Positions 22,870 to 46,184 of a DNA stretch of 64,000 bases are shown piece after piece. Position 1 is the stretch's first letter; the number at the start of each line of letters is the position of its first letter. The translations under genes and the position numbers were made by a program. Source of the DNA: Spirosoma luteum DSM 19990. Lineage in GTDB: Bacteria > Bacteroidota > Bacteroidia > Cytophagales > Spirosomataceae. The stretch spans positions 47,604 through 111,603 of the forward strand of contig NZ_KB893249.1 in NCBI RefSeq assembly GCF_000374065.1, read 5' to 3'. The notes under the pieces were generated by a model that did no database searches, was not told the origin of the DNA, and saw nothing but the letters and a program-made list of their open reading frames with translations.

Positions 22870-23310
22870 ATGAAACATCTCTTAGCTGTCCTGTTATTGG
22901 GCTTTACCCTGTCGGCATCTGGTCAGGCATCGGTGGCCTATTACCCGTGGAGTGATTTGATTACGGTCAGTTCCAATGCCGACCGGGCTTTCTGGGTTGA
23001 TGCCCGTGTTCAGACCAATACCCTGTTTGGTTCATTGAGTACTACCATCTGCCCGATGGTAAACGTGGCCCGCCGGTCGCAGGTAAATTATTATACTGGT
23101 TTGGGAATTCGATTCAACGCGTTAAACGTAATCGATAACCGCGATGTGCTGGAAGGATACTCGCTGCACGTCGGTGTCCGGATCATGCCCCTCACGTTTA
23201 TGCCTAACCTGCGTGTTGCATTCGAGTTGGCACCTTATTCACGTAAGGATTTCAAGACAGGCAACTTGCAGTCGTTCCTGGGACTGGCATGTCAGTTTGG
23301 CAAAAAATAG
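22870..23310 (+). CDS. Small secreted beta-rich protein
   Basis: The 146-aa product is taken from ATG 22870 (MKHLLAVLLLGFTLSASGQ), which gives a clean signal peptide; a start 15 bp upstream is possible. The remainder has aromatic strands (VDARVQTNTLFGSLS, VNYYTGLGIRF, GYSLHVGVRIMPL) and ends SFLGLACQFGKK, consistent with a small outer membrane barrel. It is convergent with the ctp protease gene, from which a long hairpin separates it. The function is unknown. Confidence 0.65.
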   Translation: MKHLLAVLLLGFTLSASGQASVAYYPWSDLITVSSNADRAFWVDARVQTNTLFGSLSTTICPMVNVARRSQVNYYTGLGIRFNALNVIDNRDVLEGYSLHVGVRIMPLTFMPNLRVAFELAPYSRKDFKTGNLQSFLGLACQFGKK

Positions 23311-23375
23311 GTTCACGGTTTACAGTAGCTGACGCATACATGTGTTTATGCGTCAGCTACTGTAAACCGTGAACC
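23310..23375. terminator. Long perfect hairpin (29-bp stem, 8-base loop) between convergent genes
   Basis: Arms 23310-23338 and 23347-23375 pair without mismatch; the left arm begins at the last base of the upstream stop codon. The gap after the right arm carries a second echo of the arm sequence (TTTAAACCGTAACC, about 23382-23395). No T-run follows on either strand. It probably ends transcription from both directions, and is far longer than usual intrinsic terminators. Confidence 0.75.
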
Positions 23376-23395
23376 GAATACTTTAAACCGTAACC

Positions 23396-25123
23396 CTACT
23401 TCTGATTATACGACATTGCGCCGTGCTCCAGTTTATCGGCCCGGTCAAACAGTTGGAGGGCTTTCTGATAGGTATCGTCCGTTTGGCTGATGACCCGGAA
23501 GAATTCGTTGTTTTGGCCGGACTTGTTTTCCTTCTGATAAATAGACCGGGCTACCAGTGCTTTAATCTGGTTCCGGATGTAATTCTTGGAGCGGTTATAC
23601 TCTTTCTCGTTGAATTTAATCCCTTCAGCCGTCGCATCTTTCACCAGCCGGTTCATTTGCTCATCGGTAATGGTAACGGTGCGGTTAAACTCGGCAAAAG
23701 GCATCTTTTCGAGTTTCTGCTTATTCTCATTCGTGTACTCCATCGCGAATTCGCGAATAATACTCTTTCCGTAAAGCTGCACCAGGTATGCAGTCTGCCA
23801 GGTTGAGTCACGCGGAATAAAGTAGTCGGGCGTGATACCACCCCCGCCGTACACAACCCGGCCACCGTCGGTTTTGAATTTCAGTTTAGGATCGTTTTTG
23901 ATGGAATCGGCAATATAATATTCACCCCGTTTTGAGCGCAATTCGAGGTCTTTTTCATAATCGCCTTCCTGCCCCAGCACATAAGGTTTCTGGATGCTCC
24001 GGCCACTTGGCGTGTAATAGCGCGAGATGGTGAGCCGCAACTCCGACCCATCGGAGAGCGTTACCGGCATCTGCACCAGGCCTTTACCAAACGACCGCCG
24101 ACCCGCAACCAGGGCACGGTCATGGTCCTGCAACGCTCCTGACACAATTTCGGAAGCTGACGCGCTACCCTCATCAATCAACACAACCAGAGCTCCCTCC
24201 TCAAACTGACCGGCAATATGGGCATAGGTTTTACGGTCGTAGCGGTTGTCTTTCCCATCCGTATATACCAGTAGTTTATTACCCGAAATAAATTCGTCGG
24301 CAATGTTGGTAGCCCGGTCCATATAACCGCCGGGGTTGTTACGGAGGTCCATCAACAATTGCGTCATTCCTTTCGATTTGAGGGAGGCCAGCGCAGTTTT
24401 GAATTCGTCGTAGGTTGTTTCGGAGAACCGGTTGATCTTGATATAGCCCGTTTTTCCATCAATCATATAAGCCGCGTCAATCGAGTACGTCGGAATACGG
24501 TCTCGGGTAACAATAAAGTCCTTAGGCTTCGGATCCCCCTTCCGCAAAACAGTCAGTTTAACGTCGGTACCGCGTTTGCCACGAAGGGCTTTAAACACGG
24601 CACTGTTCTCGATTTTACCGTTTCCCAGCGGTTTGTCATCCACCTCAATAATCTTGTCGCCACTCCGAATACCAACCGCTTCGGACGGACCACCCGCCAG
24701 GGGCGTTACCACGTAAACCGTGTCTTTATAGATGTTGAACTCAACACCAATCCCGTCGAAGCCCCCCTCCAGCTGCGACCGGGCGGCAACAGCATCCTGT
24801 GGGTTCATGTAGGCGGTATGCGGGTCGAGTTTCTCGAGCATTTTCTCGATTGAATAATCCACCAGTTCGTCGGTATTAACCGAGTCAACGTAGTTATTTT
24901 CGATCAACTGCAAAATTTCCCGGTACTTGGTATACCCGCGTCCAATCCCATTCATGCTTTTTGTTGCACCAAAGAATGTAGCGCCAATGAGCATCCCCCC
25001 GGCCAGTGTAATACCCAGCAGCATGGGTAGCCTAACCGTTGCTTTATTGTTCTGAATGCCCGATTTTGTTGATGAGGATCTACGCCCGGCCCATTCATTT
25101 TCGGCCTTATTATCTTTCTCCAT
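23396..25123 (-). CDS. C-terminal processing protease (S41, CtpA type)
   Basis: The 575-aa product is taken from ATG 25123 (MEKDNKAENEW); the longer frame adds 51 residues with no signal. A membrane anchor (PMLLGITLAGGMLIGATFF) precedes the N-terminal helical part, a PDZ domain (GIGVEFNIY, VTPLAGGPSEAVGIRSGD) and the S41 core with DEGSASASEIVSGALQD (nucleophile Ser) and SFGKGLVQ (general base Lys). It is a periplasmic or outer-face protease that trims or degrades envelope proteins. A long C-terminal extension is typical of the Bacteroidota members. Confidence 0.9.
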   Translation of the reverse strand: MEKDNKAENEWAGRRSSSTKSGIQNNKATVRLPMLLGITLAGGMLIGATFFGATKSMNGIGRGYTKYREILQLIENNYVDSVNTDELVDYSIEKMLEKLDPHTAYMNPQDAVAARSQLEGGFDGIGVEFNIYKDTVYVVTPLAGGPSEAVGIRSGDKIIEVDDKPLGNGKIENSAVFKALRGKRGTDVKLTVLRKGDPKPKDFIVTRDRIPTYSIDAAYMIDGKTGYIKINRFSETTYDEFKTALASLKSKGMTQLLMDLRNNPGGYMDRATNIADEFISGNKLLVYTDGKDNRYDRKTYAHIAGQFEEGALVVLIDEGSASASEIVSGALQDHDRALVAGRRSFGKGLVQMPVTLSDGSELRLTISRYYTPSGRSIQKPYVLGQEGDYEKDLELRSKRGEYYIADSIKNDPKLKFKTDGGRVVYGGGGITPDYFIPRDSTWQTAYLVQLYGKSIIREFAMEYTNENKQKLEKMPFAEFNRTVTITDEQMNRLVKDATAEGIKFNEKEYNRSKNYIRNQIKALVARSIYQKENKSGQNNEFFRVISQTDDTYQKALQLFDRADKLEHGAMSYNQK

Positions 25124-25147
25124 TCGTTCGTATCTTCTATAAGCAAT

Positions 25148-25170
25148 TAACGGTCTTAAGGTAGCGAAAT
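25148..25170 (+). other. 23-bp match to conserved 23S rRNA segment (I-CeuI-site region)
   Basis: The + strand here matches the universally conserved 23S segment that contains the I-CeuI site at 22 of 23 positions from memory, the difference being T for C at 25156. Flanking bases do not match, so this is not an rRNA gene. On the minus strand it lies 25-47 bp upstream of the ctp start codon, where it includes TACCTTAA, a weak -7-like box. It may be coincidence. Confidence 0.5.
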
Positions 25171-25388
25171 GTTTACCGGAAATGTTATTTGTTGTTAAAA
25201 AATGTAGCTGCACCCATTGGCTATTCCAGGTTATGAACAGCCGGTTATCACCCGTCTTATACGCTGAACGATGCACGACCGGATTGACTCAGTACAGGCA
25301 CGCAAATAAGATGATTTTAGCCAGAACACCCGAACCGACTGCTCAGCTAACAGGAGAGTATTTTTCATACGACCTGATAGTAACAAAA

Positions 25389-25420
25389 ACGCCATTCCCG
25401 GGTCAAACCAGGAATGGCGT
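25389..25420 (-). terminator. Intrinsic terminator of the Ohr gene
   Basis: A 10-bp perfect stem (25389-25398 with 25411-25420) and 12-base loop lie 24 bp after the Ohr stop. Read on the minus strand it is followed by TTTTTG. The rest of the roughly 320 bp gap between ctp and Ohr holds no supported gene. Confidence 0.7.
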
Positions 25421-25443
25421 GTCTATTGACTGAGTGGACCGGC

Positions 25444-25857
25444 TTACACCATCACCTCAATTTTCATGTCCATATTGCCCTTCACTGCTTTGGAGTAAGG
25501 ACAAACCGCATGGGCAGTTTCGGCTAACTGCTGGAGTTCGTCATGGTCCATGCCTGGTGCTTTCACCGTGATTTTCCCAGACAGAAACATGTTGTTCCCG
25601 TCTTTATTGAGCGATATTCCTACCTCCACAGCGTGCTGGGGCAGAATAACCTTTTTGCGTTCGGCAACGGCCATCAGTGCACCGTTGTAACACGCGCTGT
25701 AAGCAGCGGCAAACAACATTTCCGGATTGGGTTTTCCCCCTTCGCCATGCATTTCGAGCGGGCGTTTCACATCCAGTTCCAGAATACCATCGAGCGATTT
25801 CACGTCGCCATCGCGGCCACCGACATTACTGACGATGGCAGTATACAAGGTCTCCAT
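25444..25857 (-). CDS. Organic hydroperoxide resistance protein (OsmC/Ohr family)
   Basis: This 137-aa protein has the Ohr/OsmC catalytic pair, Cys56 in AAAYSACYNGAL and Cys119 in AHAVCPYSKA, which reduce organic hydroperoxides by a thiol cycle; the GGKPNPEMLFAA block is also typical. Length and spacing fit Ohr better than OsmC. It stands alone, with its own terminator. Confidence 0.9.
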   Translation of the reverse strand: METLYTAIVSNVGGRDGDVKSLDGILELDVKRPLEMHGEGGKPNPEMLFAAAYSACYNGALMAVAERKKVILPQHAVEVGISLNKDGNNMFLSGKITVKAPGMDHDELQQLAETAHAVCPYSKAVKGNMDMKIEVMV

Positions 25858-26083
25858 TTTTCTTTTTAGTTCTCGTTTATTGTATCAGCAACTACTGCTT
25901 TTATAAGTAGTAAACCCTTCATCTATCGAAAAGTTATCTATTTAAGGTATCACCCTACACGGACATAAGTCGGATTTAACCAGTAAGTTCCTTTTTTTGC
26001 CACGTTAGAACGGGAGGATCACGAACGAAACAGGCACAATCCTGACTTGCATACCGCTTCACCGACATTCCATCATTTTGAAC

Positions 26084-26091
26084 TACCTTTG
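26084..26091 (+). promoter_or_regulatory. Candidate -7 box (TACCTTTG)
   Basis: TACCTTTG fits the Bacteroidota TAnnTTTG -7 consensus, 86 bp before the TPR-protein ATG. A good -33 TTG is not present at the usual distance (only TTC at 26058-26060), so support is partial. Confidence 0.4.
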
Positions 26092-26176
26092 TTTAAGGAC
26101 TTTATTAACCCCAAAGCCGCAATAGAACGGCAGAGAACGCGTTTTTTTAGACAGGTTCCACTATACGCTGACCAGC

Positions 26177-27958
26177 ATGAATACGGTATACAAATTTTAC
26201 ACAAGCCGGGTCCTGATTGGGTGGATTGGTAGTTATGGGTTGATCTTATGGGTCATCCTAACACCCGCCCAGGCTCAGCGTCGACGCGAAAAAATCCTTC
26301 CTGATACGAGCCTTGCCCGAGTTGTATCGACCACAACCAACCGCATTGAAGCCGAAACGCAGTTTACGGAAGGAGTCCGGTATCTGATGACCGATGAGCC
26401 AGCTAAGGCCATTGCCCAGTTTGGTAAAGTATTGCAGAAAGACCCGAACAATGCTGCCGCGCAGTACGCTACAGCCAGTGCCTTGCAGAAAACCGGCAAA
26501 GTTGCGGAGGCTATTCCGTTTGCGCTTAAAGCGTACGGGCTGGATAATCAAAACAAGTACTACACCCTCCTGCTGGCCGAACTGTACGTGAAGCAAAAAC
26601 GCTACACGGAAGCCGAAGATCTTTACGAAAAGCTACTAAAAAAAGGCCCCGAAAATGCTGAATACGGGGTTGAACTGGCCGCCATTTACCTCTTTAATGA
26701 CAAGCCGGATAAGGCTCTGGACACCTACAACCGGGTAGAGCGTGAACTAGGCCTGAATGAGGAAATTATCCGGCAGAAGCAACGCATCTATCTGAAGCAG
26801 AATAAAATAGACAAAGCCATTGAAGAAGCCGAGAAATTAGTGGCTTCAGAACCAGCCGAACCGGAATACCTGCTCGAAGGTGCCGAAATGTTGATTGCCA
26901 ATGACCGGGCCGATAAGGCCATTAGCTGGATAGACCAGGCGCTGAAACTCAACCCTGATTTACCGCAAGCCCACGTTTTACTAGCCGACATTTACCGGCA
27001 GAAAGGGGATATGGCCCGCGTAACGCAGGAGTTGAATCAGGTGCTGGCCAACCCGAACCTCGAAGCGGGCCTGAAAGCCAGAATCCTGTCGAGTTACGTA
27101 GGCATGACCGGCGAAAGTGCAGCGGGGCAAAAAGATGCGCTGGGCATGGCGCAGAATTTAGCAAAGTCCTCCCCCAATGACCCTAAAACACAGATAATGC
27201 TGGCCGATTTGCTCATGCAGCAGGGCAAGAAAGTAGAAGCTCGTGATGCCTACGCCAGGGCCTCCCAGCTTGATGGCTCTGTTTATGAAGTGTGGGGCGC
27301 CTTGCTCCAATTGGATGGTGAACTCAATCAGGTAGACAGTTTGCTGATTCACTCTGAGAAAGCGCTGGAGGTTTTCCCAACGCAAGGATTGTTCTGGTAT
27401 TCCAATGGCTCCGCCAATTTGTTCAAACGCAAGTATCAGCAGGCCGTCGATGCGCTGGAAGAAAGCCAGAAATTGTTAGCCGCCACCTCGAATAACGAAC
27501 TTAAAAAAGGCATTGGCGTACAGTTAGGTGATGCCTACAACGGCCTTGGCGACCACGCCAAGTCGGATGAGTACTACGAAGCCGTCTTGAAAGTAGACCC
27601 GCTGAACGATCACGTACTCAACAATTACAGCTACTTTCTGTCATTGCGCAATGAAAAATTACCCCGCGCCTTACAACTTGCCCAGAAACTGGTGGAACGC
27701 CACCCAGCCAATGCTACCTATCTGGATACCTATGCCTGGGTATTGTACGTGTCCAAAGACTATGCGAAAGCAAAGCAATACCTGGAAAAAGCCCTGGCCG
27801 ATCCGGCCAATGTGAGTGGTACAATCATTGAGCATTACGGAGATGTTCTGTATAAGTTGGGCCAGCCCGAAAAAGCCGTTGACCAGTGGAAAGCGGCTAA
27901 GGCAAAGGGGAACGCTGGCCCTGATATAGATAAAAAGATTACTACCGGAAAGTTGTAA
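26177..27958 (+). CDS. Tetratricopeptide-repeat protein, secreted
   Basis: This 593-aa protein has an N-terminal hydrophobic signal (LILWVILTPAQAQ) and roughly 12-14 TPR units, for example AIAQFGKVLQKDPNNAAAQY, AEDLYEKLLKKGPENAEY, AISWIDQALKLNPDLPQAH and VEPARALAQKLVERHPA-like repeats toward the end. It heads a three-gene cluster with DUF4292 and M23 genes that is conserved in Bacteroidota in this order (recollection). It probably scaffolds an envelope complex. Alternative start codons exist upstream of the signal but were not preferred. Confidence 0.85.
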   Translation: MNTVYKFYTSRVLIGWIGSYGLILWVILTPAQAQRRREKILPDTSLARVVSTTTNRIEAETQFTEGVRYLMTDEPAKAIAQFGKVLQKDPNNAAAQYATASALQKTGKVAEAIPFALKAYGLDNQNKYYTLLLAELYVKQKRYTEAEDLYEKLLKKGPENAEYGVELAAIYLFNDKPDKALDTYNRVERELGLNEEIIRQKQRIYLKQNKIDKAIEEAEKLVASEPAEPEYLLEGAEMLIANDRADKAISWIDQALKLNPDLPQAHVLLADIYRQKGDMARVTQELNQVLANPNLEAGLKARILSSYVGMTGESAAGQKDALGMAQNLAKSSPNDPKTQIMLADLLMQQGKKVEARDAYARASQLDGSVYEVWGALLQLDGELNQVDSLLIHSEKALEVFPTQGLFWYSNGSANLFKRKYQQAVDALEESQKLLAATSNNELKKGIGVQLGDAYNGLGDHAKSDEYYEAVLKVDPLNDHVLNNYSYFLSLRNEKLPRALQLAQKLVERHPANATYLDTYAWVLYVSKDYAKAKQYLEKALADPANVSGTIIEHYGDVLYKLGQPEKAVDQWKAAKAKGNAGPDIDKKITTGKL

Positions 27959-28045
27959 AAATGAGGGTAGCATTTGGTAGTCGGCTTTCGGTAGCCGGTT
28001 TACGCCGGTCTGACAATCGGTAACCCGTTACCCCAATTAGTTCAA

Positions 28046-28924
28046 ATGAATAACTACTTGTTTTTCATCCTATTGGTGAGCGTTCTGGCCAGTTCGGAAG
28101 GTTGTCGGCGCAACGCTATGCCACGCGCTTCCCGTTCTACTCAATCTTCGCCTTCGGATACATCAAACTCAGCCTCACAAACGGCAGGTATTTCTGCTGG
28201 TACTACCACTACTACCACAGTATCATCGTCAGGGTCAGTGCCTGTGGAAGCCAGCGCCAGCGTAGCAGCGGTTGATTTCCGCTACCTCACGGCCAAATCG
28301 AGAATCTCGTTCAAAAGTGAAAAGCAGGAAATTGATAATGCCAGCGTAACCATCCGTATTCAGCAGGATAGTCTTATCTGGGTATCCGTTTCCAAGCTGG
28401 GCATCGAAGCGGCCAGGGTACTAATCACCCGCGACTCCATCATGATTCTGGATAAAATAAACCGGGCGTACGCAGTAGCTGATTTTGCTACTCTGAGCAG
28501 GCAATTTTCGTTCAGCCTGAGTTATCCACTACTACAGACCCTGATTGTTGGTAACCTGCCGCTACCAAACCGCATGGCTCACAAAAGTAGATCCGCCGAC
28601 GAAGCAAATTACCTGTTGCTTCGTCAACAGGAAGGCCCGGTTCTGGTTGAAAACTACATCGATGAAACCGACCGTAAACTAAAGAAGCTGGTGATGACCC
28701 AGCAACCAGCCAACAATACATTACGGATAGCCTACACCGATTTTGCCCCACTCGATAGCTTTCTGTTTCCTTTGTCCAGCGTGCTGACGCTCGATTACCG
28801 GTCACAAACGGATGGACAGTTTTCTCAGACTGTGTTGCGCAGTAAGTACACCAAAGTTGAATTGATCGACAAAAATCCGGGCTTCCCCTTCACCGTTCCG
28901 GCTACTTATCAGCGTCGGCCGTAA
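28046..28924 (+). CDS. DUF4292 lipoprotein-like protein
   Basis: This 292-aa protein has a signal ending ASSEGC, where a Cys could be lipidated although the lipobox is poor, then a Ser/Thr-rich linker (about 25-70) and the DUF4292 domain (about 75-290, LIWVSVSKLGIEAARVLITRDS, MILDKINRAYA). The fold resembles LolA/LolB-type outer membrane sorting proteins (family knowledge). Between the TPR gene and the M23 gene, it fits an envelope-assembly role. Confidence 0.85.
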   Translation: MNNYLFFILLVSVLASSEGCRRNAMPRASRSTQSSPSDTSNSASQTAGISAGTTTTTTVSSSGSVPVEASASVAAVDFRYLTAKSRISFKSEKQEIDNASVTIRIQQDSLIWVSVSKLGIEAARVLITRDSIMILDKINRAYAVADFATLSRQFSFSLSYPLLQTLIVGNLPLPNRMAHKSRSADEANYLLLRQQEGPVLVENYIDETDRKLKKLVMTQQPANNTLRIAYTDFAPLDSFLFPLSSVLTLDYRSQTDGQFSQTVLRSKYTKVELIDKNPGFPFTVPATYQRRP

Positions 28925-28947
28925 AAATATTCGTTAGTTTTAGGCCT

Positions 28948-30384
28948 ATGTATTCTAACAGTCTATCTTCTTCCCGGTTTTCGTTCCGGGCCGTCATCTA
29001 TCTCGCTTTGTTCGGTCTGGTATGGTGTAGCAACCCGGTACGGGCACAGCAAACCCAGCGAAGCCGACAGGTACTGGAGAAAGAAAAGAAGCAGAATCTG
29101 GAAAAAATGAACCAGATACGCACAATACTCAAACAAACATCGTCGGAAAAACAGGCTGGTTTGGGTCAGTTGAAAGCCCTGAATCAGCAGATTCAGATTC
29201 AGTCCAAACAGATAGGCCTGCTGAGTAAAGACCTCCAGTTGACCGAATCGGAAATCACCGAACTTCGCCAGGCCAGTAACTCCCTGACTCAGGATCTGGA
29301 CAAACTCAAGGACGAGTACAGTTCCATGATCTATGCCGCCGACAAACGACGGCAACAGGTAAATCCGCTGGGTTTTCTATTCGCAGCCGAAAATTTCAAT
29401 CAAATCGTCGCCCGGTACCGGTATTTGCGGCAGTACTCCAATGCCCGCCAGAGTCAGGTACGGCAAATGAATAATGTAAAGTCCATGTTACAGGCCAAGC
29501 AACAGGCCACGCAGCGCAAACGCCAGGAGCAGAAAAGTACCATCGGAACCAAGTTAAACGAAGGTAAAAAACTCGAAGCGCTGAAGGAAGAAAAGAATGT
29601 TGTTGTGAAGGAACTGAGCCAGAAGGAAACGGAACTTCAAACGGAGCTGACTGAAAGCCGCCGGGCCATCAATCGGCTTGAGAGTATGATTACGCGCATC
29701 ATTGCCCGCGAAGCGAAAGAAAGGGCGGAGCGGGAAGCCCGCGAACGGGCCGCCCGCGTAGAACGGGAACGGATTGCCCGGCTTGAAGCCGCCCGGAAAG
29801 CTGCGGAACGGAAACGGGCGCAGGAGGCCATAGCAGCCGCCGAGAAAGTAGGCGAAAAACCCGCCCCTGCCGATGTTGCCAAGGCGGAAAAACCGCCCGA
29901 ACCAGAACCTGTTGCCGCAAAACCGGACGAACGACGTAACAATAACCTTAATGACGAAGAGAGTAAACTGGCTTCTTCATTCACCGCTTCGCGGGCGCAC
30001 CTGCCCTGGCCGGTTACCAAAGGCTTTATTTCCGATCACTTCGGCCGTAAACCCCACCCCGTTCTGAGAGGAATTTTCGTTGAAAATCAGGGTGTCGATA
30101 TTCAAACCAATGTTGGTGAAGGAGTTCGAACCGTCTATGATGGTATTGTTCAGGATGTAACCAGTATGCCGGGTATGAACAATGTGGTGGCTATACAACA
30201 TGGCGATTACTTTACGGTGTATGCCAAACTGAAGAGTGTTTCGGTTCGGATAGGGCAGCGCGTAAAGGCCCGGGAATCCATTGGTACGGTAGCTACGGAT
30301 AAAAACGGTGTGTCTGAAATTCAGTTTCAGATATGGAAAGAGTTTACCAAGCTCAACCCCGAATCGTGGCTCACGCCAAGATAA
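28948..30384 (+). CDS. M23 peptidoglycan peptidase, EnvC-like
   Basis: This 478-aa protein has a signal peptide, a long coiled coil (about 35-265, Gln/Glu/Lys/Arg-rich), an Ala/Pro/Glu-rich linker (about 270-335) and a C-terminal LytM/M23 domain (about 350-478, HFGRKPHPVLRGIFVENQGVDI, VAIQHGDYFTVYAKL). The HPVLRG and HGDYFTVY segments match degenerate LytM of EnvC, in which metal-binding residues are missing and the protein activates amidases rather than cutting itself. Here the first block lacks the usual HxxxD order (ENQGVD). It is likely an amidase activator in cell separation. Confidence 0.85.
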   Translation: MYSNSLSSSRFSFRAVIYLALFGLVWCSNPVRAQQTQRSRQVLEKEKKQNLEKMNQIRTILKQTSSEKQAGLGQLKALNQQIQIQSKQIGLLSKDLQLTESEITELRQASNSLTQDLDKLKDEYSSMIYAADKRRQQVNPLGFLFAAENFNQIVARYRYLRQYSNARQSQVRQMNNVKSMLQAKQQATQRKRQEQKSTIGTKLNEGKKLEALKEEKNVVVKELSQKETELQTELTESRRAINRLESMITRIIAREAKERAEREARERAARVERERIARLEAARKAAERKRAQEAIAAAEKVGEKPAPADVAKAEKPPEPEPVAAKPDERRNNNLNDEESKLASSFTASRAHLPWPVTKGFISDHFGRKPHPVLRGIFVENQGVDIQTNVGEGVRTVYDGIVQDVTSMPGMNNVVAIQHGDYFTVYAKLKSVSVRIGQRVKARESIGTVATDKNGVSEIQFQIWKEFTKLNPESWLTPR

Positions 30385-30412
30385 GTTTGATTGGTGCGCC
30401 GATGTGGTTTGT

Positions 30413-30464
30413 AGTTTGATGTTTGTAGTTTTGATGGTTGGATGATAACTACAAACATCAAACT
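30413..30464. repeat. Long perfect inverted repeat (18-bp arms, 16-base loop)
   Basis: Arms 30413-30430 and 30447-30464 pair exactly. It lies in the 86-bp gap between the M23 gene and panB, six bases before the panB ATG, so an RNA hairpin would end next to the start codon. It could terminate the upstream transcript or affect panB translation. Confidence 0.65.
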
Positions 30465-30470
30465 GACCGC

Positions 30471-31289: not shown

Positions 31290-31377
31290 GTTAGGTTAAA
31301 GAGGTAAGGCCCAGTAAGAAAGACAAATCGTTCGCATCTTTTCGTATGGCTTACCGCTTAGTTAAGCTATTATACGT

Positions 31378-32124: not shown

Positions 32125-32175
32125 TTCACCGACCGTATCTTGCTTTTCCCAGCTTCTGACGGCTGTACCCAAAAG

Positions 32176-32219
32176 AAAAGAGCCGCACTATCCGTTCCCC
32201 AGATAATGCGGCTCTTTTT
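32176..32219 (+). terminator. Intrinsic terminator of the pseudouridine synthase gene
   Basis: A 16-bp stem (32176-32191 with 32203-32218, one mismatch) with an 11-base loop is followed by a short T-run. It lies 52 bp after the stop. Its opposite strand has an A-run before the stem, so it could also end the small minus-strand gene at 32251. Confidence 0.8.
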
Positions 32220-32250
32220 ATATAAAAAAAGGAAAAGAAAGACTAGCTTT

Positions 32251-38517: not shown

Positions 38518-38518
38518 A

Positions 38519-38555
38519 GAGTGAAAGAGTGAGTATGAATCATTCTCTTTCGCTC
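38519..38555. terminator. 11-bp hairpin with one wobble pair
   Basis: Arms 38519-38529 and 38545-38555 pair with one G-U and a 15-base loop in the short gap after the ABC-F stop. It could end or attenuate transcription before the DedA gene. Confidence 0.4.
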
Positions 38556-38586
38556 CGCACCGGCGGCCCGGTTTCACTCATTAATC

Positions 38587-39228: not shown

Positions 39229-39229
39229 A

Positions 39230-39289
39230 CTACTCCTGTGGTCTGTAATGACGGCTTCAGGAATCGGTCATTACAGACCACAGGAGTAG
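39230..39289. terminator. Long perfect hairpin (23-bp stem, 14-base loop) between convergent genes
   Basis: Arms 39230-39252 and 39267-39289 pair without mismatch. The structure nearly fills the 65-bp gap between the DedA stop and the dehydrogenase stop, so it can terminate transcription from either side. No T-run follows. Confidence 0.75.
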
Positions 39290-39293
39290 GGGC

Positions 39294-40667
39294 TCACTCT
39301 TTCTCCACCCATACCGTCTTCACGTTCACGAACTCTTTCATCCCTTCTTCTGATAGCTCACGGCCAAAACCGGAGGTCTTGATACCGCCAAACGGAACTC
39401 GGGCATCGGAACGCATCAGTCCGTTTACAAATACGGAACCCGCCTGAATTTGCCGGGCCAGCCGGGCACCCTTTTCGATATCCTGCGTCCATAGGGCCGA
39501 GCCAAGGCCAAAATCGGATTGATTGGCGAGCCGGATGGCATCGGCTTCATCTTTCGCTTCGATGAGCACCGCCAGCGGGCCGAATGTTTCTTCATCGAAG
39601 GCCGCCATGCCGGGCTTTACCCTGTCGAGCAGGATTGGCTGCATGTTGCACCCATCCCGTTGCCCGCCAAATAGCCGTTTAGCTCCTTTGGCTATAGAGG
39701 ACTGACTCTGGCGTTCGATATCGTCGGCCAGACTGGTTCGGGCCATTGGCCCCATGGTCGTATCGTCGGCCATGGGGTCTCCTTGTCTTATCTGCTCGAT
39801 GTGGTGGAGTACCAGGTCGGTGAACTGTTTTTTTACGGACTTTTCGATAATGAATCGCTTGGCCGCAATACAGCTCTGCCCCGCATTCTGCATACGGGAT
39901 TTTACCGCAGTTTCAGCCGCTTTTTCCAGGTTGGCATCCGCCAGTACGACCAGCGCATCGGAGCCACCCAGCTCCAGTACCGATTTCTTGATCTGACTAC
40001 CGGCAATACTGGCTACCGATGCGCCCGCCGGGCCGCTGCCCGTCAGCGTAACGGCTTTCACCCGCTTATCTTTCAGAATACCTTCTACCGATTTAGAGCC
40101 AATCAGCAAGGTCTGGAAAGTTCCTTCCGGTAATCCGCTTTCCCGGAATATATCTTCCAATGCCAGGGCGCACCCCATTACGTTGGATGCGTGCTTGAGT
40201 AAGCCTACGTTGCCCGCAATCAGTCCGGGAATGGCGAAACGCATCACCTGCCAGAAGGGGAAGTTCCAGGGCATCACGGCCAGTACTGGTCCCAGCGGCT
40301 GATACGCGATGAAGCTTTTCTGAGCCGGTCCATTGCTGCGGTCTGTTTCAATGGATTTGTCAGCCAGAAAAGCGTTGGCATTATCGGCATAGAAGGTGCA
40401 CGTAGTGGCACACTTCTCCACTTCCGCGATAGCCTCCTTGAGCGTCTTCCCCATTTCGGCGGTCATCAGTTCACCGTACTGCCGCTTATTTTTAGTTAGC
40501 GTGTCGCCTACTTTTCGCAGGTAATCGACACGGTCTGCCAATGGCAAAGCCGACCAGTCGGCAAAGGCCCGGTCGGCTTGTTTCAGTTTCCGCTCAATGG
40601 CCGTCTGGCTATCGGGGCGGTATGTCTTCAGTTTCTTCTGATTGTATGGGTTAACGGAGGTGAACAT
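39294..40667 (-). CDS. NAD(P)-dependent aldehyde dehydrogenase (succinate-semialdehyde type)
   Basis: This 457-aa protein has the ALDH fold: VMPWNFPFWQVMRFAIPGLI at the cofactor site, KHASNVMG, TGSGPAGASVASIAG, SVLELGGSDALVVLADANLE (catalytic Glu region) and NAGQSCIAAKRFIIE with the catalytic Cys. The GGIKTSGFGRELSEEGMKEF ending matches succinate-semialdehyde dehydrogenases of the GabD group. It oxidises an aldehyde, probably succinic semialdehyde. The exact substrate is inferred from similarity only. Confidence 0.85.
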   Translation of the reverse strand: MFTSVNPYNQKKLKTYRPDSQTAIERKLKQADRAFADWSALPLADRVDYLRKVGDTLTKNKRQYGELMTAEMGKTLKEAIAEVEKCATTCTFYADNANAFLADKSIETDRSNGPAQKSFIAYQPLGPVLAVMPWNFPFWQVMRFAIPGLIAGNVGLLKHASNVMGCALALEDIFRESGLPEGTFQTLLIGSKSVEGILKDKRVKAVTLTGSGPAGASVASIAGSQIKKSVLELGGSDALVVLADANLEKAAETAVKSRMQNAGQSCIAAKRFIIEKSVKKQFTDLVLHHIEQIRQGDPMADDTTMGPMARTSLADDIERQSQSSIAKGAKRLFGGQRDGCNMQPILLDRVKPGMAAFDEETFGPLAVLIEAKDEADAIRLANQSDFGLGSALWTQDIEKGARLARQIQAGSVFVNGLMRSDARVPFGGIKTSGFGRELSEEGMKEFVNVKTVWVEKE

Positions 40668-40743
40668 ACAGTTTGCGGGTTTACATTTCCAGAAGCAGAA
40701 GCATCCAGCTAAAGGGCTGCGGGGCTACTATACCGATAAAACC

Positions 40744-41241
40744 TCAAACGCCCTTACACTGTTCTTCGCTCTCCAGGGTGTTGGCTAATAACAACATGGT
40801 ATCAATGACCTGTTCCATGTGGTCGTGTCCTACAATACCATCAAATTTATCCCGGACTTCCTGCATGCATTCCCGAAGCGCGATGAAGAGTTCTTTACCC
40901 CGTTCATTCAGGAAGATGATGCTGGACCTTGAATCAACGGGGTTTTTCTTCGTATAGATATAGCCCTCGTTCTCGAGCAGACCAACAATTTTACTCATCA
41001 TCTGCTTAGTCACGCAGGCTTTCCGGGCCAACTCATTATTCGTCGTTCCCTCCTCCTGAATATTGGCCAGAAACATCAGGTAACTCATCTTGAAATCCGT
41101 ATAGCCCAACTCCTGCAACCGTGGCTCCATAAAGCTATCCGTGTACCGCTTGAGCCGCCAGAATAAACGGCCCATTGCCCGCTCACGGACAAGCTTGTAT
41201 TGGTCAAAATCAAAGGACTTGTTATCTGTTTCCACGATCAT
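40744..41241 (-). CDS. MarR-family transcriptional repressor
   Basis: This 165-aa protein has the winged-helix MarR layout, with NNELARKACVTKQMMSKIVG as recognition helices, then ENEGYIYTKKNPVDSRSSIIFLNERGKEL as the wing. It diverges from the HlyD/MFS/TolC set over about 175 bp. Three 17-bp inverted repeats lie between them, so it very likely represses itself and the efflux genes, and is released by a small ligand. Confidence 0.9.
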   Translation of the reverse strand: MIVETDNKSFDFDQYKLVRERAMGRLFWRLKRYTDSFMEPRLQELGYTDFKMSYLMFLANIQEEGTTNNELARKACVTKQMMSKIVGLLENEGYIYTKKNPVDSRSSIIFLNERGKELFIALRECMQEVRDKFDGIVGHDHMEQVIDTMLLLANTLESEEQCKGV

Positions 41242-41288
41242 GAAATAAAATTAACGAATACTGAAACAATTCGCTTTAAAACATTGTA

Positions 41289-41322
41289 CAAAAATAGTCA
41301 ACTTATTTGACTTCATAGTCAA
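41289..41322 (-). promoter_or_regulatory. Candidate promoter of the MarR gene (minus strand)
   Basis: On the minus strand TTG at 41322-41320 is followed after 23 bases by TATTTTTG at 41296-41289, an exact TAnnTTTG. Operator 1 lies between these boxes and operator 2 overlaps the -33 box, so repressor binding would block the repressor's own gene. Confidence 0.45.
41296..41312. promoter_or_regulatory. MarR-type operator 1
   Basis: A 17-bp perfect inverted repeat, AGTCAA-5-TTGACT. It covers the -33 region of the efflux promoter and touches the -7 box of the repressor promoter. Confidence 0.65.
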
Positions 41323-41337
41323 CCTGGTTTACTTTTG
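41306..41337 (+). promoter_or_regulatory. Candidate promoter of the efflux operon
   Basis: TTTG at 41306-41309 and TACTTTTG at 41330-41337, 20 bases apart, fit the Bacteroidota TTG / TAnnTTTG pattern well. Operator 1 overlaps the -33 box and operator 2 overlaps the -7 box; the expected start is about 41344, just before operator 3. Confidence 0.6.
41317..41333. promoter_or_regulatory. MarR-type operator 2
   Basis: The same 17-bp pattern, AGTCAA-5-TTTACT, with one mismatch between arms. It starts 21 bp after operator 1 (two helical turns) and overlaps the -7 box of the efflux promoter. Confidence 0.6.
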
Positions 41338-41346
41338 CACCGTGAT

Positions 41347-41363
41347 AGTAAAACAAGTTGACT
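41347..41363. promoter_or_regulatory. MarR-type operator 3
   Basis: The same 17-bp pattern, AGTAAA-5-TTGACT, with one mismatch between arms, starting 30 bp after operator 2, at or just after the expected transcription start of the efflux operon. Confidence 0.55.
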
Positions 41364-41416
41364 ACACATTAGCGTTCAGACCGACGGCTGACTACGATTA
41401 AAACGATACAGAACGA

Positions 41417-42529
41417 ATGGCAACCTTAACAGAGGAAATGACAACCACAGAAGAAAAGAGCAGCTTCAGAACCTACTTACCCCGAATCATCATTGCACTC
41501 GTCGTGCTGGTTGGTGGCTATTTCGGCTATCAGGCGTACCAACACAGTCAGCAGTACGAAACAACCGACAATGCACAGATTGACGGAAACTCAGCCCCAG
41601 TACTGGCCCGTGTAGCGGGCTATGTAACGTCGGTAAACGTGAGTGATTACACAACTGTAAAACAGGGGCAGTTACTAGTGACGATTGACTCACAGGAGTA
41701 TGACGTGGCCATGGCCCAGGCCGAAGCCGACTATCAGCAATCGATGGCCGATTTGGCCAACGCCCGCGCTGATCTCCAGACCGCACAGGCCAATGTGCGT
41801 AATGTAGCGCAGAATGTTCGCCTGGCTCAATCGAACGCACAGGTACAGGATGCCCGGCTGGACAAGTCAAAACAGGATTTGCAGCGCGACCAGAATCTGT
41901 ACAAAGCGCAGTCGCTGACCAAGAAACAACTGGAAGATGCCCAGAACAACGCCGAAGTGCAGAATCGCCAGTATGATGCCAGTAAAGAGCAGATCGGTCT
42001 GGCCAAAACGGCGCAGGGCGTGGCGCAGGCGGGCATTGCCAAAGCACAGGCCACTATTCAGAAGATTCAGGCAGTACTAAAGGTGAAGCAGGCAGCTATC
42101 GACAATGCCAGACTGCGGCTTGGCTACGCCCGTGTAACGGCCCCGATTGCCGGTAAAATTGGCCGTAAAAACGTGGTGACTGGCCAGTATGTTCAACCCG
42201 GTCAGAATATGTTCACCATTGTGGCCGATTCTACATTTTGGGTCATAGCGAACTTCAAAGAAACACAACTGGAAAAAATGAAGCTGGGTCAGGAAGTCGA
42301 TGTTAAGCTGGACGCCTACCCAAACTTGGACATCAAAGGGCGGGTGTCCTCCTTATCCGACGCTACCGGAGCCAAGTTTGCGCTGCTTCCTGCCGACAAC
42401 GCATCGGGCAATTTCGTTAAAATCACCCAGCGCGTGCCGGTGAAAATCGAAATCCTCAATCCAGAGAAATACAAAGAGCAATTACGGGCCGGCCTGAGCG
42501 TGGAGGCAGAAGTACGGGTACAGGAATAA
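41417..42529 (+). CDS. HlyD-family periplasmic adaptor (EmrA type)
   Basis: This 370-aa protein has one N-terminal membrane helix (about 20-40), a lipoyl-like half (DNAQIDGNSAPVLARVAGYV), a long coiled-coil hairpin (about 95-220) and a beta-barrel region with YARVTAPIAGKIGRKNVVTG, the EmrA/HlyD signature. It links the inner membrane transporter encoded next to the outer membrane channel. It is the first gene of the efflux set, under the triple-operator region. Confidence 0.9.
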   Translation: MATLTEEMTTTEEKSSFRTYLPRIIIALVVLVGGYFGYQAYQHSQQYETTDNAQIDGNSAPVLARVAGYVTSVNVSDYTTVKQGQLLVTIDSQEYDVAMAQAEADYQQSMADLANARADLQTAQANVRNVAQNVRLAQSNAQVQDARLDKSKQDLQRDQNLYKAQSLTKKQLEDAQNNAEVQNRQYDASKEQIGLAKTAQGVAQAGIAKAQATIQKIQAVLKVKQAAIDNARLRLGYARVTAPIAGKIGRKNVVTGQYVQPGQNMFTIVADSTFWVIANFKETQLEKMKLGQEVDVKLDAYPNLDIKGRVSSLSDATGAKFALLPADNASGNFVKITQRVPVKIEILNPEKYKEQLRAGLSVEAEVRVQE

Positions 42530-42608
42530 GTTTGCAACCTATGGTTTATGATTTTTTCCTGCTTCAACTGACCGTACGCTATAAGCCACGAACCACCAAC
42601 TTATAATT

Positions 42609-44222
42609 ATGGCAACGCAAACCCTGACCGCACCTGCTCAGACGGATTATCCTACCGGCCTTAAACGGTGGATTATTGTCCTCACAGCTATTTCGGCAGC
42701 CATCATTGAACTGATTGACATTTCTATCGTAAACGTCGGCCTGACCGACATTGCCGGGAATCTCGGCGTCACGATTGAAGATGTAGCCTGGGTAGTAACC
42801 GCCTACGCCATCGCCAACGTCATTGTAATACCAATGACAGGTTTTTTACAGCGGTATTTTGGTCGCAAGAATTACTTCATCACCTCTATCATTATCTTCA
42901 CCGTAGCTTCGTACGGCTGCGGCTTTGCGGATAACCTATGGACGTTGGTTGCCTTTCGTTTTTTGCAGGGTATTGGCGGTGGCGCCCTACTTTCCACGTC
43001 GCAGGGTATTTTGTTCGATGCGTTTCCACCGGCAAATAAGGCATTGGCCTCAGCTTTGTTCGGTATGGGCATCGTGCTTGGGCCCACGCTTGGCCCTACC
43101 CTGGGTGGTTATATTATCGACAATTACCATTGGAGTTGGATGTTCTACATCAACGTGCCAATCGGTATTCTGGCCGTATTCCTTAGCTACACGTACCTGG
43201 ACAAAAAGCCCGAAGAGGAAAACATCAACCGAAGTACTATAAAAATTGATTACTTTGGTATTCTTCTTCTGGCCGTTGGGATTGGTAGTTTGCAGTACGT
43301 GCTGGAGCGGGGTGAAGCCGACGACTGGTTCGATAGCTCGTCTATATTATGGCTCTCGGTAGCAACCGTCATATCTATCCCACTTTTTGTATGGTGGGAG
43401 TTGCGCGGCACCAAAGACCCGGTGGTGGACCTGCGCGCGTTGAAAAACCGGAACCTGGCCGTTGGTTCGCTGCTGATGATCATTATCGGCTATGGACTCT
43501 TTACATCGGTGTTATTGTACCCCCTGTTTGCCCAGCGGATTGTGGGTTTGACGGCTACGCAAACGGGTCAGTTGCTGATTCCCGGCGGGCTGGTAACCTT
43601 ACCCATGTTTGCACTGGTGGGGCGACTACTGTCCAAAAACGTGTCGCCAACGTTGCTGGTAGGCATTGGATACGTCGCTTTTTCCAGCTTCTGCTTCATC
43701 TTGTCTACCTACAATATGGATGCCTCCAACGGCGATTTTATCGTCGGGCTTATCATCCGGGGTATTGGACTCGCCTTTGTAAACGTGCCGCTCATTAATC
43801 AGTCGGTCGCTACGCTGGAACCACGTCAACTGCCTACGGGTATTGCTATTGTAAACATGACCCGCCAGATTGGTGGCGCCTTTGGGGTAGCTATTACGAA
43901 CACGTACGTTACGCAACGGGTAGCCGTCCACCGGGGTGATCTGGTATCCAACCTGCAACCGGGGGATATACTCACCACCGAGCGACTCAATGCCCTGACG
44001 CAGGGCCTGATGGCCAGAGGAATAAACGCCTTCGATGCGGTGACGGGAGCCTACAAAAACCTCGATCTGATTATATCGAGGCAAGCCCTGATGCTGTCTT
44101 ATCTGGATACTTTCAAACTGGCGGGGCTGTTTTTCGTTGTCTCGTTCCCGCTGTTATTTCTGTTACAAAATAGAAAAATGGACGCTGCCCGGGCGAAAGC
44201 CGTGGCCGATGCCGCACACTGA
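42609..44222 (+). CDS. MFS multidrug transporter, DHA2 family (EmrB type)
   Basis: This 537-aa protein has 13-14 hydrophobic helices and DHA2 motifs including DISIVNVGLTDIAGNLG, GFLQRYFGRKNYF, GIVLGPTLGPTLGGYIID, and FYINVPIGILAVFLSY. It is a proton-driven exporter of hydrophobic compounds and, with the adjacent EmrA-like adaptor and TolC-like channel, forms a three-part pump. A 79-bp gap follows the adaptor gene. Confidence 0.9.
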   Translation: MATQTLTAPAQTDYPTGLKRWIIVLTAISAAIIELIDISIVNVGLTDIAGNLGVTIEDVAWVVTAYAIANVIVIPMTGFLQRYFGRKNYFITSIIIFTVASYGCGFADNLWTLVAFRFLQGIGGGALLSTSQGILFDAFPPANKALASALFGMGIVLGPTLGPTLGGYIIDNYHWSWMFYINVPIGILAVFLSYTYLDKKPEEENINRSTIKIDYFGILLLAVGIGSLQYVLERGEADDWFDSSSILWLSVATVISIPLFVWWELRGTKDPVVDLRALKNRNLAVGSLLMIIIGYGLFTSVLLYPLFAQRIVGLTATQTGQLLIPGGLVTLPMFALVGRLLSKNVSPTLLVGIGYVAFSSFCFILSTYNMDASNGDFIVGLIIRGIGLAFVNVPLINQSVATLEPRQLPTGIAIVNMTRQIGGAFGVAITNTYVTQRVAVHRGDLVSNLQPGDILTTERLNALTQGLMARGINAFDAVTGAYKNLDLIISRQALMLSYLDTFKLAGLFFVVSFPLLFLLQNRKMDAARAKAVADAAH

Positions 44223-44231
44223 TTTTATCGT

Positions 44232-44298
44232 TTGTTGTTCGACGTTTGTCCTTCTTCCGGCCGTATCTATTCTGGCAACGACAAACGTCGAACAACAA
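44232..44298. repeat. Long perfect inverted repeat (19-bp arms, 29-base loop)
   Basis: Arms 44232-44250 and 44280-44298 pair exactly and lie between the transporter stop and the TolC start at 44317. If it acts in RNA, the hairpin would uncouple or attenuate the last gene of an otherwise compact operon; an alternative long TolC frame runs through it and is not preferred. Confidence 0.65.
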
Positions 44299-44316
44299 CT
44301 CTCAAACTACGATTAC

Positions 44317-45648
44317 ATGAACCTACAATTTTTCATATTTGCTTCCCTGCTGACAACGGGGATTGTTCGGGCGCAAAGCCAACCGGTGGTAACAGTTCCC
44401 GACGAACTTCGGACGCTGGTACAGCAGGCGAATACCAATTATCCGGTGCTGAAGCAACAGCAGGAACAGATCAGGGCGGGTGAACTGCGGGTCGATATTT
44501 CCCGTACGGCCATGCGGCCCAATGTCAATCTGAATGGGAACTACACCTATATTACACCCGTACCGCAGTTTGCCGTGCCGCTCAATGGTCAGGAGGTAAT
44601 TGCGAAACTGGCCCCCAACCACAGCCTCAATGGCAACGTGTCGGTCGGGCAAACGATTTACGATTTCGGGCGTACCGATGCGGCCATTCGGCAAGCCCAG
44701 GATAATGTGCAGGTGCTGCGTCGGGGTCTGGAAATTAGCCAGCAAAATCTGGCGTATCAGGTGGCCGCTACGTACTATGGCATTGGCTTTTTGCAACGGA
44801 GCCTGATTGTGCAGGATTCAGTCATTAAAACGGCGGGGGCCAATGTGCAGTTGCTGATTACGCGGCTGCAAAATGGAGACGCACTGCAATACGATGTACT
44901 GACGCAGCAGGTGCGGGTTAAGGCGGCTCAGAATCGCAAAATCGATATTCAGAATCAGTTGGACCGGCAACTGGCCAACCTGACTTTCCTGACCGGCAGT
45001 ACAACGCCCAGCGTCAGTCAGGCTATCAATCAATTTGATTTAGGCTCGGCCATGAACATAGCCACGCAACCGTACGCACTCGACGGCGACCTGACAGTAG
45101 CGTTGGCAGGCAACAAAGACGTTCAACTGGCGCAGGACCGGCTCCGGTCGGCCGAAACGGATATCGTCGTGACTAGCAAAACCGGTAAACCCAACATCGC
45201 TTTCAGCGGGAACGCGGGGTATAAAAACGGCTATCCACTAAATGTTCAGGAGTTGAGGCCTAACCTGGCCGCTGGTGTAGGGCTGGTTGTGCCGCTATAC
45301 GCCGGAAAACGCTACCAACTGCAAAACCAGGTGGCGCAACTCAACCTAAACGCCAGCCGGTACGCCGTTGAAACAGCCAATGCCCAGTTTCGGCAGAGTA
45401 TTGCCCAGCTCAACGCCGATATTCGAAGCAATCAAACCCGCCTGACTAACCTGGAAACGCAGGTGCAGCAGTCCCGGCAAGCCCTACAGATTGCCAACGC
45501 CCGGCTACAGAACGGGGTCATTACGAACGTAGAACTGCAAAGTGCCGAAACGGGTGTGGAAGAAGCCGAACTGGGCCGCCTGAATTTCAAGTATCAGTTA
45601 TTGCTGAATCAGCTGGAGTTAAAGCGGTTATTGGGAGAAAGTTTGTAG
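44317..45648 (+). CDS. TolC-family outer membrane efflux channel
   Basis: The 443-aa product is taken from ATG 44317 (MNLQFFIFASLLTTGIVRAQ), which has a signal peptide; the longer frame from 44137 overlaps the transporter gene and hairpin. Repeated coiled-coil segments (AIRQAQDNVQVLRRGLEISQ, LQNGDALQYDVLTQQVRV), NLNGNYTYITPV strands and a duplicated structure are those of TolC/OEP channels. It completes the tripartite efflux system. Confidence 0.9.
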   Translation: MNLQFFIFASLLTTGIVRAQSQPVVTVPDELRTLVQQANTNYPVLKQQQEQIRAGELRVDISRTAMRPNVNLNGNYTYITPVPQFAVPLNGQEVIAKLAPNHSLNGNVSVGQTIYDFGRTDAAIRQAQDNVQVLRRGLEISQQNLAYQVAATYYGIGFLQRSLIVQDSVIKTAGANVQLLITRLQNGDALQYDVLTQQVRVKAAQNRKIDIQNQLDRQLANLTFLTGSTTPSVSQAINQFDLGSAMNIATQPYALDGDLTVALAGNKDVQLAQDRLRSAETDIVVTSKTGKPNIAFSGNAGYKNGYPLNVQELRPNLAAGVGLVVPLYAGKRYQLQNQVAQLNLNASRYAVETANAQFRQSIAQLNADIRSNQTRLTNLETQVQQSRQALQIANARLQNGVITNVELQSAETGVEEAELGRLNFKYQLLLNQLELKRLLGESL

Positions 45649-45883
45649 AAACGTGAGTACGGGAGTAAAAATGGCCTGTATTGACGTTAAAGAAAGCCTC
45701 TGGCTATACGGTTCCTGACAACTACTTTCTACTTACTAATCAGGAACAACTATCATTGACCATGAAGGAGTCAGATTGACCGCTTCCTAAAAAATGGTAA
45801 GAATCCGGTTCTATTTATACTAAATCGCCCCGAAAGTCCCTTTACTAGAGAAGAGCATAGGTTGTAAAAATAGAAAGATCGTT

Positions 45884-46114
45884 ATGAAGAAGCAGGTAAC
45901 TGAGATTTTGAAACAATTCGGCATACCCGAATCAGCCATCACCGACCAAACTCATTTCTCCCGCGATCTGGGCCTGGACAGCCTCGACAATGTTGATCTG
46001 ATCATGCGGCTCGAACAAACGTTCGGCATCCGCATTCCCGACGAAGATTATTCAAAACTAACCACCATGCAGGAGGTTATTGACTACCTACAGGCCGAAC
46101 AGTCGGTGGCGTAA
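45884..46114 (+). CDS. Acyl carrier protein
   Basis: This 76-aa acidic four-helix protein has the phosphopantetheine site LGLDSLDNVDLIMRLEQTFG, with Ser33 as the attachment point, and IRIPDEDYSKLTTMQEVIDYL at the end. It is close to AcpP but stands alone, without fabD, fabG or fabF beside it, so it may serve another pathway. The 235-bp gap before it holds an imperfect 7-bp inverted repeat and no supported gene. Confidence 0.85.
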   Translation: MKKQVTEILKQFGIPESAITDQTHFSRDLGLDSLDNVDLIMRLEQTFGIRIPDEDYSKLTTMQEVIDYLQAEQSVA

Positions 46115-46135
46115 GCCGTCTATCTGCTTTGTGCC

Positions 46136-46184
46136 CGTCAGCCATTCAACGGAACTAACTTATGTGTCCGTTGAATGGCTGACG
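46136..46184. repeat. Long perfect inverted repeat (18-bp arms, 13-base loop)
   Basis: Arms 46136-46153 and 46167-46184 pair exactly in the 125-bp gap between the ACP and esterase genes. It may end the ACP transcript; no T-run follows. Confidence 0.65.

Follow-up and report, generated by a model that had tools for sequence, protein, structure and literature searches.

Gene-end hairpins of Spirosoma that keep their place while their sequence changes

The origin and upkeep of long RNA stems is an old question, and one proposed solution is template switching. The question is raised by a stretch of 64,000 nt from Spirosoma luteum DSM 19990 (here the window; G000:C5:47604-111603), part of a genome of 6.6 Mb in 68 contigs (G000, here the own genome). 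A preliminary description of the window pointed to five intergenic inverted repeats with long perfect arms, unrelated sequence and no T-runs, and offered as explanations either templated copying or selection for pairing alone, the repeats being either the terminator form of this lineage or a distinct element. The reading favored here, with a probability of about 0.6, is that selection, for termination or for protection of mRNA ends, keeps the hairpins at gene 3′ ends, but that template switching creates them, perfects them and rewrites them. Switching between inverted repeats leads to homogenization of the arms and inversion of the spacer (PMC8604942), and inverted loops are regarded as a strong sign of the process, though they are rare in rRNA (PMC8794818).

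All five repeats are present, and the perfect arms of 18 to 29 bp claimed for them measure 29, 18, 23, 19 and 18 bp in order of position. Lengths of perfect arms were measured from the outer ends, mismatches then being permitted inward. The five hairpins, the inner stem of the first and two further hairpins of the window are:

23310 to 23375, unstranded: hairpin I1, in a convergent gap, with a loop of 8 nt between perfect arms of 29 bp
23327 to 23358, unstranded: core stem of I1, AGCTGACGC ... GCGTCAGCT
30413 to 30464, unstranded: hairpin I3, 18 perfect bp, 23 with 2 mismatches (91%), codirectional gap
39230 to 39289, unstranded: hairpin I2, 23 perfect bp, 29 with 2 mismatches (93%), convergent gap
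44232 to 44298, unstranded: hairpin I4, 19 perfect bp, 22 with 1 mismatch (95%), codirectional gap
46136 to 46184, unstranded: hairpin I5, perfect 18-bp arms (100%), codirectional gap
32176 to 32218, unstranded: another member of the class in a convergent gap, AAAAGAGCCGC/GCGGCTCTTTT, resembling a terminator and bearing tracts of A and T
54213 to 54245, unstranded: further hairpin, arms of 13 perfect and 16 near-perfect bp, 9 nt past the stop of the open reading frame (ORF) ending at 54203

Folding of the five, each compared with 200 dinucleotide shuffles, gave z scores of -12.98 (23310), -6.13 (30413), -8.78 (39230), -6.93 (44232) and -7.65 (46136). Their intergenic position is borne out, with 23310 and 39230 in convergent gaps and 30413, 44232 and 46136 in codirectional ones. 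Hairpin 44232 was scored as genic by the gene caller, which started the downstream gene at 44209, and is hence absent from the intergenic position, loop-inversion and stem-change counts given below; it is taken as intergenic because an in-frame ATG at 44318 is followed by what appears by eye to be a signal-peptide-like start. The lack of T-runs holds for four of the five, which have no run of at least four T within 12 nt past the stem; the exception is 23310, with TATTTTTT past the stem on the minus strand. No known Rfam family was matched at the gathering score in the window, the only sequence scanned for this purpose.

Hairpins of this kind are far from rare. Two outcomes had been named beforehand as telling against the class, a frequency at chance level and a location mainly inside genes, and the scans showed neither. 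With a criterion of perfect arms of at least 12 bp and a loop of at most 40 nt, 400 kb of the own contig C1 contains 63 hairpins, and three first-order Markov shuffles of the same 400 kb contain 1, 2 and 2, which rules out a chance origin. Allowing loops of up to 45 nt gives 65 hairpins in the 400 kb, which extrapolates to roughly a thousand over the 6.6 Mb genome. Counted per 100 kb, arms of at least 14 bp number 13.5 in C1 and 7.8 in the window; 13.0, 10.0, 11.0 and 8.5 in genomes G001, G019, G007 and G010; 23.8 in G102, 10.0 in G142, 3.8 in both G069 and G082, and 7.5 in G028; and 1.0 in E. coli (100 kb scanned). A value of 14.4 from eight further stretches of the own genome is biased upward, since five of the eight were chosen for holding a copy of the core family described below. 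One shuffle per stretch gave no such arm. The longest arms, of up to 52 bp, are found in G102, and no arm of 18 bp or more occurs in 80 kb each of G069 and G082, each from a low-GC genus of the family that lacks the core. Samples of 20 kb held 1 to 5 hairpins with arms of at least 14 bp in eight Spirosoma genomes and 0 to 3 in eight genomes from other families of the order.

Positions were pooled over seven stretches (C1, the window, G048, G001, G019, G007 and G010), in which 223 of 226 hairpins were classified, the omitted three lying near stretch ends. Codirectional gaps hold 106 of these hairpins, convergent gaps 78 and divergent gaps 22, with only 17 within called genes, and this classification rules out a location mainly inside genes. 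Per kb of gap there are 3.17 hairpins between convergent, 1.22 between codirectional and 0.42 between divergent genes. The median distance past the end of the upstream gene is 13–25 nt in convergent and codirectional gaps; hairpins of divergent gaps lie a median of 61–167 nt from either gene. Among hairpins with arms of 12–17 bp, codirectional ones have a run of at least four T on the 3′ side in a fraction of 0.42 and on the 5′ side in 0.16, and convergent ones in 0.40 and 0.04; the values for convergent arms of 18 bp or more are 0.47 and 0.17. Gap densities, distances and T-runs together thus connect the class with the ends of transcripts, some of its members resembling ordinary bidirectional terminators. 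An impression of G-rich 5′ arms, which came from one gap, was rejected for the class as a whole (90 arms with G>C, 82 with C>G, p 0.59).

Judged by its position, the hairpin RNA most likely ends transcription, or marks or protects the mRNA end, often for both of two convergent genes. The same place and the T-run excess of the shorter hairpins would also be expected of ordinary intrinsic, often bidirectional, terminators that change by stepwise compensatory substitution with no special mutation process, an explanation that is considered unlikely for reasons found in the stems and loops (see below). Somewhat less doubtful is a role in protecting mRNA 3′ ends, whereby Rho or another system would terminate downstream, exonucleases would trim back to the hairpin, and the hairpin itself would be non-terminating. 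Long codirectional hairpins have no T-run excess, in keeping with such a role, but shorter hairpins do have T-runs; the explanation differs from the favored one in the last step only and leaves the template-switch part unaffected.

The place of the hairpins is conserved while their letters change. A search of 36 Spirosoma genomes gave the gap holding I1 in 30, the own genome among them, and this gap contains a hairpin with a score of at least 13 in 28 of the 30 species, compared with none of 30 shuffled gaps. In the 29 species with a score of at least 10, the start of the hairpin lies no more than 3 nt ahead of the stop codon's end and no more than 20 nt past it. By eye, these hairpins are mostly unlike each other, although G001 resembles G019 and G007 resembles G010, both being pairs of close relatives. 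The closest relative found to the own genome is G048 (S41 gene 89% identical, aligned blocks 74–90%), and its gap holds a hairpin unrelated to I1. The arms of I2 both differ in G048 and pair more poorly there; both arms of I4 are spelled differently, with shorter pairing in G048 (by eye); I3 is kept, with an identical 5′ arm and a 14-nt insertion in the 3′ arm of G048; I5 is kept.

A wider comparison took in 182 orthologous gaps from five collinear stretches in three species pairs, two of the stretches (L314 and L315) having been picked for holding cores. Both species have a hairpin in 15 of 113 codirectional gaps (4.0 expected if independent) and 3 of 37 divergent gaps (0.5 expected). The 32 pairs of hairpins sharing a gap comprise 15 that are at least 85% identical, 7 at 60–85% and 10 below 60%, and the gene flanks of these ten are 89–96% identical. 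Five of the ten (G007 46364, 159510 and 181869; G001 149999 and 108919) differ clearly in their distance from the gene and may be comparisons of separate hairpins within a gap. Clear rewrites number five: 23310 of the window, L315 9190, L314 14001, G007 33165 and G001 145136. Gaps such as that of 23310, in which orthologous positions hold wholly different hairpins, and word styles that by eye recur between species would also be seen if whole hairpins were exchanged between strains by recombination or transfer and not rewritten in place. Exchange does not predict, however, the several loci that are partly rewritten or have an inverted loop between kept arms, and it is judged improbable.

Footprints of the kind left by template switching were sought in 67 unique orthologous hairpins, drawn from 102 records of the three species pairs in both directions. 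A loop was called inverted when its reverse-complement identity was at least 0.7 and at least 0.2 above the direct identity. Loops are shorter than 4 nt at 11 of the 67 loci; the other 56 are scorable, with 35 in the same orientation, 10 inverted and 11 unclear. Random reassignment of loops yields 0.575 inverted per 79 comparisons. The longest inverted loop, of 43 nt (G019 95855), is 96% identical to the reverse complement. Hairpin 32176 of the window also has an inverted loop relative to G048, as a weaker case (0.79 inverted, 0.58 direct).

Stem changes were counted in a strict set of 55 loci with stem identity of at least 75%, 12 of the 67 being dropped. Sixteen pairs are altered on both sides and still Watson-Crick, where 1.4 are expected under independence, and 4 are altered on both sides without pairing; the excess of paired changes may reflect single events that alter several bases of both arms. 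One-sided changes in this set are 22 to GU, 31 to AC and 29 transversions. Without the identity cut, all loci together show 38 two-sided paired changes (6.4 expected) and 27 unpaired ones, with one-sided changes of 44 GU, 51 AC and 63 transversions. At G007 33179 the stem is altered on both sides at six pairs and paired in both species. The arm of G019 at the G001 191662 locus measures 32 bp against 24, and its extra 3′ letters are complementary to its own 5′ flank, as would be expected of arm extension, loss in the other species being equally possible.

These counts bear on the ordinary terminators introduced above. Compensatory switching is documented in terminators of Bacillus cereus, where 79% of switches are AU-GC and, among AU-GC switches with an inferable intermediate, 89.5% passed through GU (PMC5381666), and to this extent stepwise substitution has a precedent. 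The mix of GU, AC and transversion changes found here is different, and 7 of the 16 two-sided paired changes are not switches between A-T and G-C, though scoring differs between the studies. Moreover, selection on pairing alone predicts neither loop inversion nor 7-nt words nor arms of up to 52 bp. As to the choice between templated copying and selection for pairing in the preliminary description, something of each is backed, the two-sided changes, the inverted loops and the absence of a G-U preference being what copying would leave.

Part of the class belongs to an element family with a common core. The pattern GGCTGACGC-N3..33-GCGTCAGCC has 27 exact copies in the own genome, compared with 1 for the reversed-pattern control. 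Allowing one degenerate base per side gives 29 own copies and at least one copy in 28 of 36 Spirosoma genomes. Chance accounts for some of the single-copy matches, because in G007 and G010 the copies observed fall inside genes. Sampling of the family shows the core in 23 of 101 genomes and 6 of 36 genera. Among 395 sampled Bacteroidota it occurs in 7 genomes, three of them family members with 29, 16 and 61 copies and four non-family genomes with one copy each, as chance predicts. All 29 own copies lie between genes, 19 in codirectional, 10 in convergent and none in divergent gaps. The 28 nt ahead of the core in these copies match themselves at lag 7 (0.59, z 17.1) and lag 14 (0.60, z 14.7). 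The words of the own genome are mostly GGTTTAC-like, those of other species also TTAGGAG, GATGAAT, GAGTGAA and more, and many copies have the same words beside the core in both arms (all by eye).

I1 is a variant of this family (AGCTGACGC at 23327–23335, reversed at 23350–23358) and falls outside the 27 exact copies; its sequence matches further loci in the own genome, and the first 45 nt of its gap across 30 species show a lag-7 signal (z 6.8). Repeated 7-nt words were seen by eye in 23310, 30413 and 44232, the latter two marked at lag 7 by a lag scan, and the arm words of I3 read GTAGTTT GATGTTT GTAGTTT. The description of the hairpins as unrelated in sequence therefore fails for the part of the class formed by this family with its common core stem and 7-nt-word arms, I1 included; the CGTCAGCC of 46136 and the presence of repeated 7-nt words in three of the hairpins likewise qualify it. 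The question of terminator form or distinct element likewise receives a divided answer: the 3′-end place and the T-runs of shorter members fit terminators or mRNA ends, and some members make up a distinct element family. Gaps of the seven stretches passed the repeat threshold most often at lags 7 (17), 14 (16), 8 (15) and 16 (9), and never more than 5 times at the remaining lags between 3 and 16, some of these gaps being without hairpins; strict-threshold lag scans over whole stretches did not single out lag 7. Units of 7 nt have been proposed to reflect the stretch of DNA in contact with polymerase (earlier work cited in PMC4679880), which is taken here as a lead only.

Several observations concern the family and its words. 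A second module like GCCGGGCCGCCGGTGCGG lies on one side, between core and word arm, in several copies (the G048 sequence aligned to L314 18543–18605; L273, L278, L279, L282, L241 and L262). Long arrays of GATGAGT/GATGAAT words that do not form simple hairpins occupy divergent gaps in G007 (joined L216–L225, 67474–67893) and G010 (joined L226–L235, 122650–123115). Genomes of genera g22 and g30 (G056, G102, G124 and G142) contain 47–69 core copies, above the Spirosoma genomes, and none was found in G087 (g22) or G090 (g30). In G042:C1 there are two equally scoring copies of the S41 gene (26722 and 8835861) and two of the core (17956 and 8827096), one near either end of the 8.85-Mb contig, which suggests overlapping contig ends.

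Since the core is a dispersed palindrome, it might be a mobile element resembling repetitive extragenic palindromes (REP) and dispersed by a Y1 transposase (RAYT/TnpA-REP). Only the core subset of the class has the character of a dispersed extragenic palindrome in tens of copies. Its distribution within genera is patchy, the genomes of g22 holding 61, 69, 55, 2 and 0 copies, and TnpA-REP subclasses with atypical flanking structures are known in Bacteroidetes (PMC6006769). The Y1_Tnp domain (PF01797) was matched in 93 of 101 family genomes. However, PF01797 finds no match in G124, a genome of 2 contigs and 99% completeness with 55 cores, and the correlation of core count with Y1 count is weak and not decisive (rho 0.39, p 0.058), computed on 24 of 101 genomes, namely all 23 with the core plus G023, with the other 77 omitted. 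Published REP families carry an unpaired GTAG or CGTC tag (PMC3733652); inspection by eye of the 29 own copies revealed no unpaired tag of either kind common to one end, the core stem being symmetric with CGTC in its paired part, and the arms of core copies differ from one another. Dependence of the core on a Y1 transposase is unlikely, and the REP-like explanation as a whole very much so.

Under the favored reading, a hairpin at a gene 3′ end would terminate transcription, or it would label the end of the mRNA and protect it. The lineage would be distinguished by the way its arms evolve. At the palindrome, polymerase would switch template, either using one arm as template for the other or passing to the opposite strand and returning. 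Such switching would lengthen arms, repair mismatches, rewrite both arms jointly and invert loops, and selection for pairing at gene ends would retain its products. In the core-family subset, a conserved inner stem (GGCTGACGC/GCGTCAGCC) is continued outward by tandem degenerate words of 7 nt, sometimes 8 nt; the repeat pattern is observed, and the word arms probably grow or shrink by slippage.

A number of results weigh against this account. Genes were located with a home-made caller script. Codirectional hairpins with arms of at least 18 bp show no excess of T-runs (0.31 on either side), and hairpins shared by both species in convergent gaps (14 of 32, 11.8 expected) hardly exceed independence. 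One-sided stem changes outnumber two-sided ones in the strict set, 82 to 16. Codirectional hairpins read in the transcript sense give one-sided GU/AC counts of 8/5 (strict) and 22/17 (all loci), too few for a preference. The two-sided changes could also arise by stepwise compensation under strong selection, and two genomes cannot order the steps. Finally, no 7-nt periodicity is found over all own-genome arms of at least 16 bp (z 0.2), so that the word family is a minority of the class; a periodicity of the whole class in this genome was accordingly dropped.

A bolder view can be put forward tentatively, and at less than even odds. The letters of gene-end hairpins in Spirosoma and some related genera may be disposable, with template switching and slippage of 7-nt words regenerating long perfect palindromes on the spot, in such a way that structure is inherited without sequence. 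In its furthest form, held together with the rest at the same tentative level, the GGCTGACGC core with its word arms would be an element in no need of a transposase, replication errors alone being enough for it to spread or re-form.

The genes named around the window hairpins encode an S41 peptidase, an M23 peptidase, PanB, a VTT protein, an aldehyde dehydrogenase, an MFS transporter, an outer-membrane efflux protein and an esterase. I1 lies between ORF 22855–23310, without a Pfam match, and the S41 peptidase gene. I3 ends 6 nt ahead of the panB ATG (30471). I2 spans its whole convergent gap, from 1 nt past one stop codon to 4 nt short of the other. I4 separates the MFS transporter and outer-membrane efflux protein genes. 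I5, which contains CGTCAGCC, sits before the esterase gene and after a short ORF (45884–46114) that by eye looks like an acyl carrier protein. An imperfect hairpin at a gene boundary (21740–21850) has the words AGGCATG AGACTTG GGGCACA GGGCTAA (by eye). A near-perfect inverted repeat with a 34-nt spacer in a divergent gap (41295–41364), kept in G048, may be an operator and not a member of the class. Elsewhere in the own genome, hairpin TTTTGTCATCCCGACGCAGGAGGGATCT (L026 12921–12995; G000:C1:372921–372995) presumably resembles a repeat found in many bacterial genomes.

These hairpins offer a natural system for learning how errors in DNA copying create hairpins and mend them. Compensatory change combined with an inverted loop, among the clearest footprints of template switching, is extremely rare in rRNA data (PMC8794818), and inverted loops are common here; since the genus is also culturable and each genome would hold so many hairpins, the process might be watched directly. 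In this lineage, covariation could mislead comparative RNA methods that regard it as proving selection. Among open-licence papers, none was found on Spirosoma hairpins by title or start of abstract, and no description was found there of the combination of terminator, REP-like and template-switch features, of its frequency or of the word arms.

Terminators, REP-like repeats and template-switch hairpins are all known, and the class is a variant of them. Template-switch hairpins share with it the homogenization of arms, inversion of the loop or spacer and, apparently, multi-base compensatory change (PMC8794818, PMC8604942). Those of rRNA and microRNA genes combine compensatory change with loop inversion extremely rarely (PMC8794818), whereas 10 of 56 loops are inverted here, and those with ten spacer inversions are from yeast coding genes (PMC8604942), in contrast to a bacterial gene-end class. 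Intrinsic and bidirectional terminators likewise follow stop codons and have A and T tracts, as does part of the present set (PMC5381666, PMC1852404), which differs from them in having arms of 18–52 bp in part, many members without a T-run and no GU preference seen. Heptanucleotide TAACTGA repeats are also tandem 7-nt words between genes (PMC4679880, citing Mrazek 2007); they lie mainly before start codons, while the words described here are degenerate and occupy both hairpin arms after genes. REP elements of the GTAG and CGTC families are, like the core copies, dispersed palindromes outside genes (PMC3733652), but the core copies have no unpaired end tag, carry CGTC within the paired core, extend into long variable arms beyond it, and abound in one genome without a Y1 transposase match.

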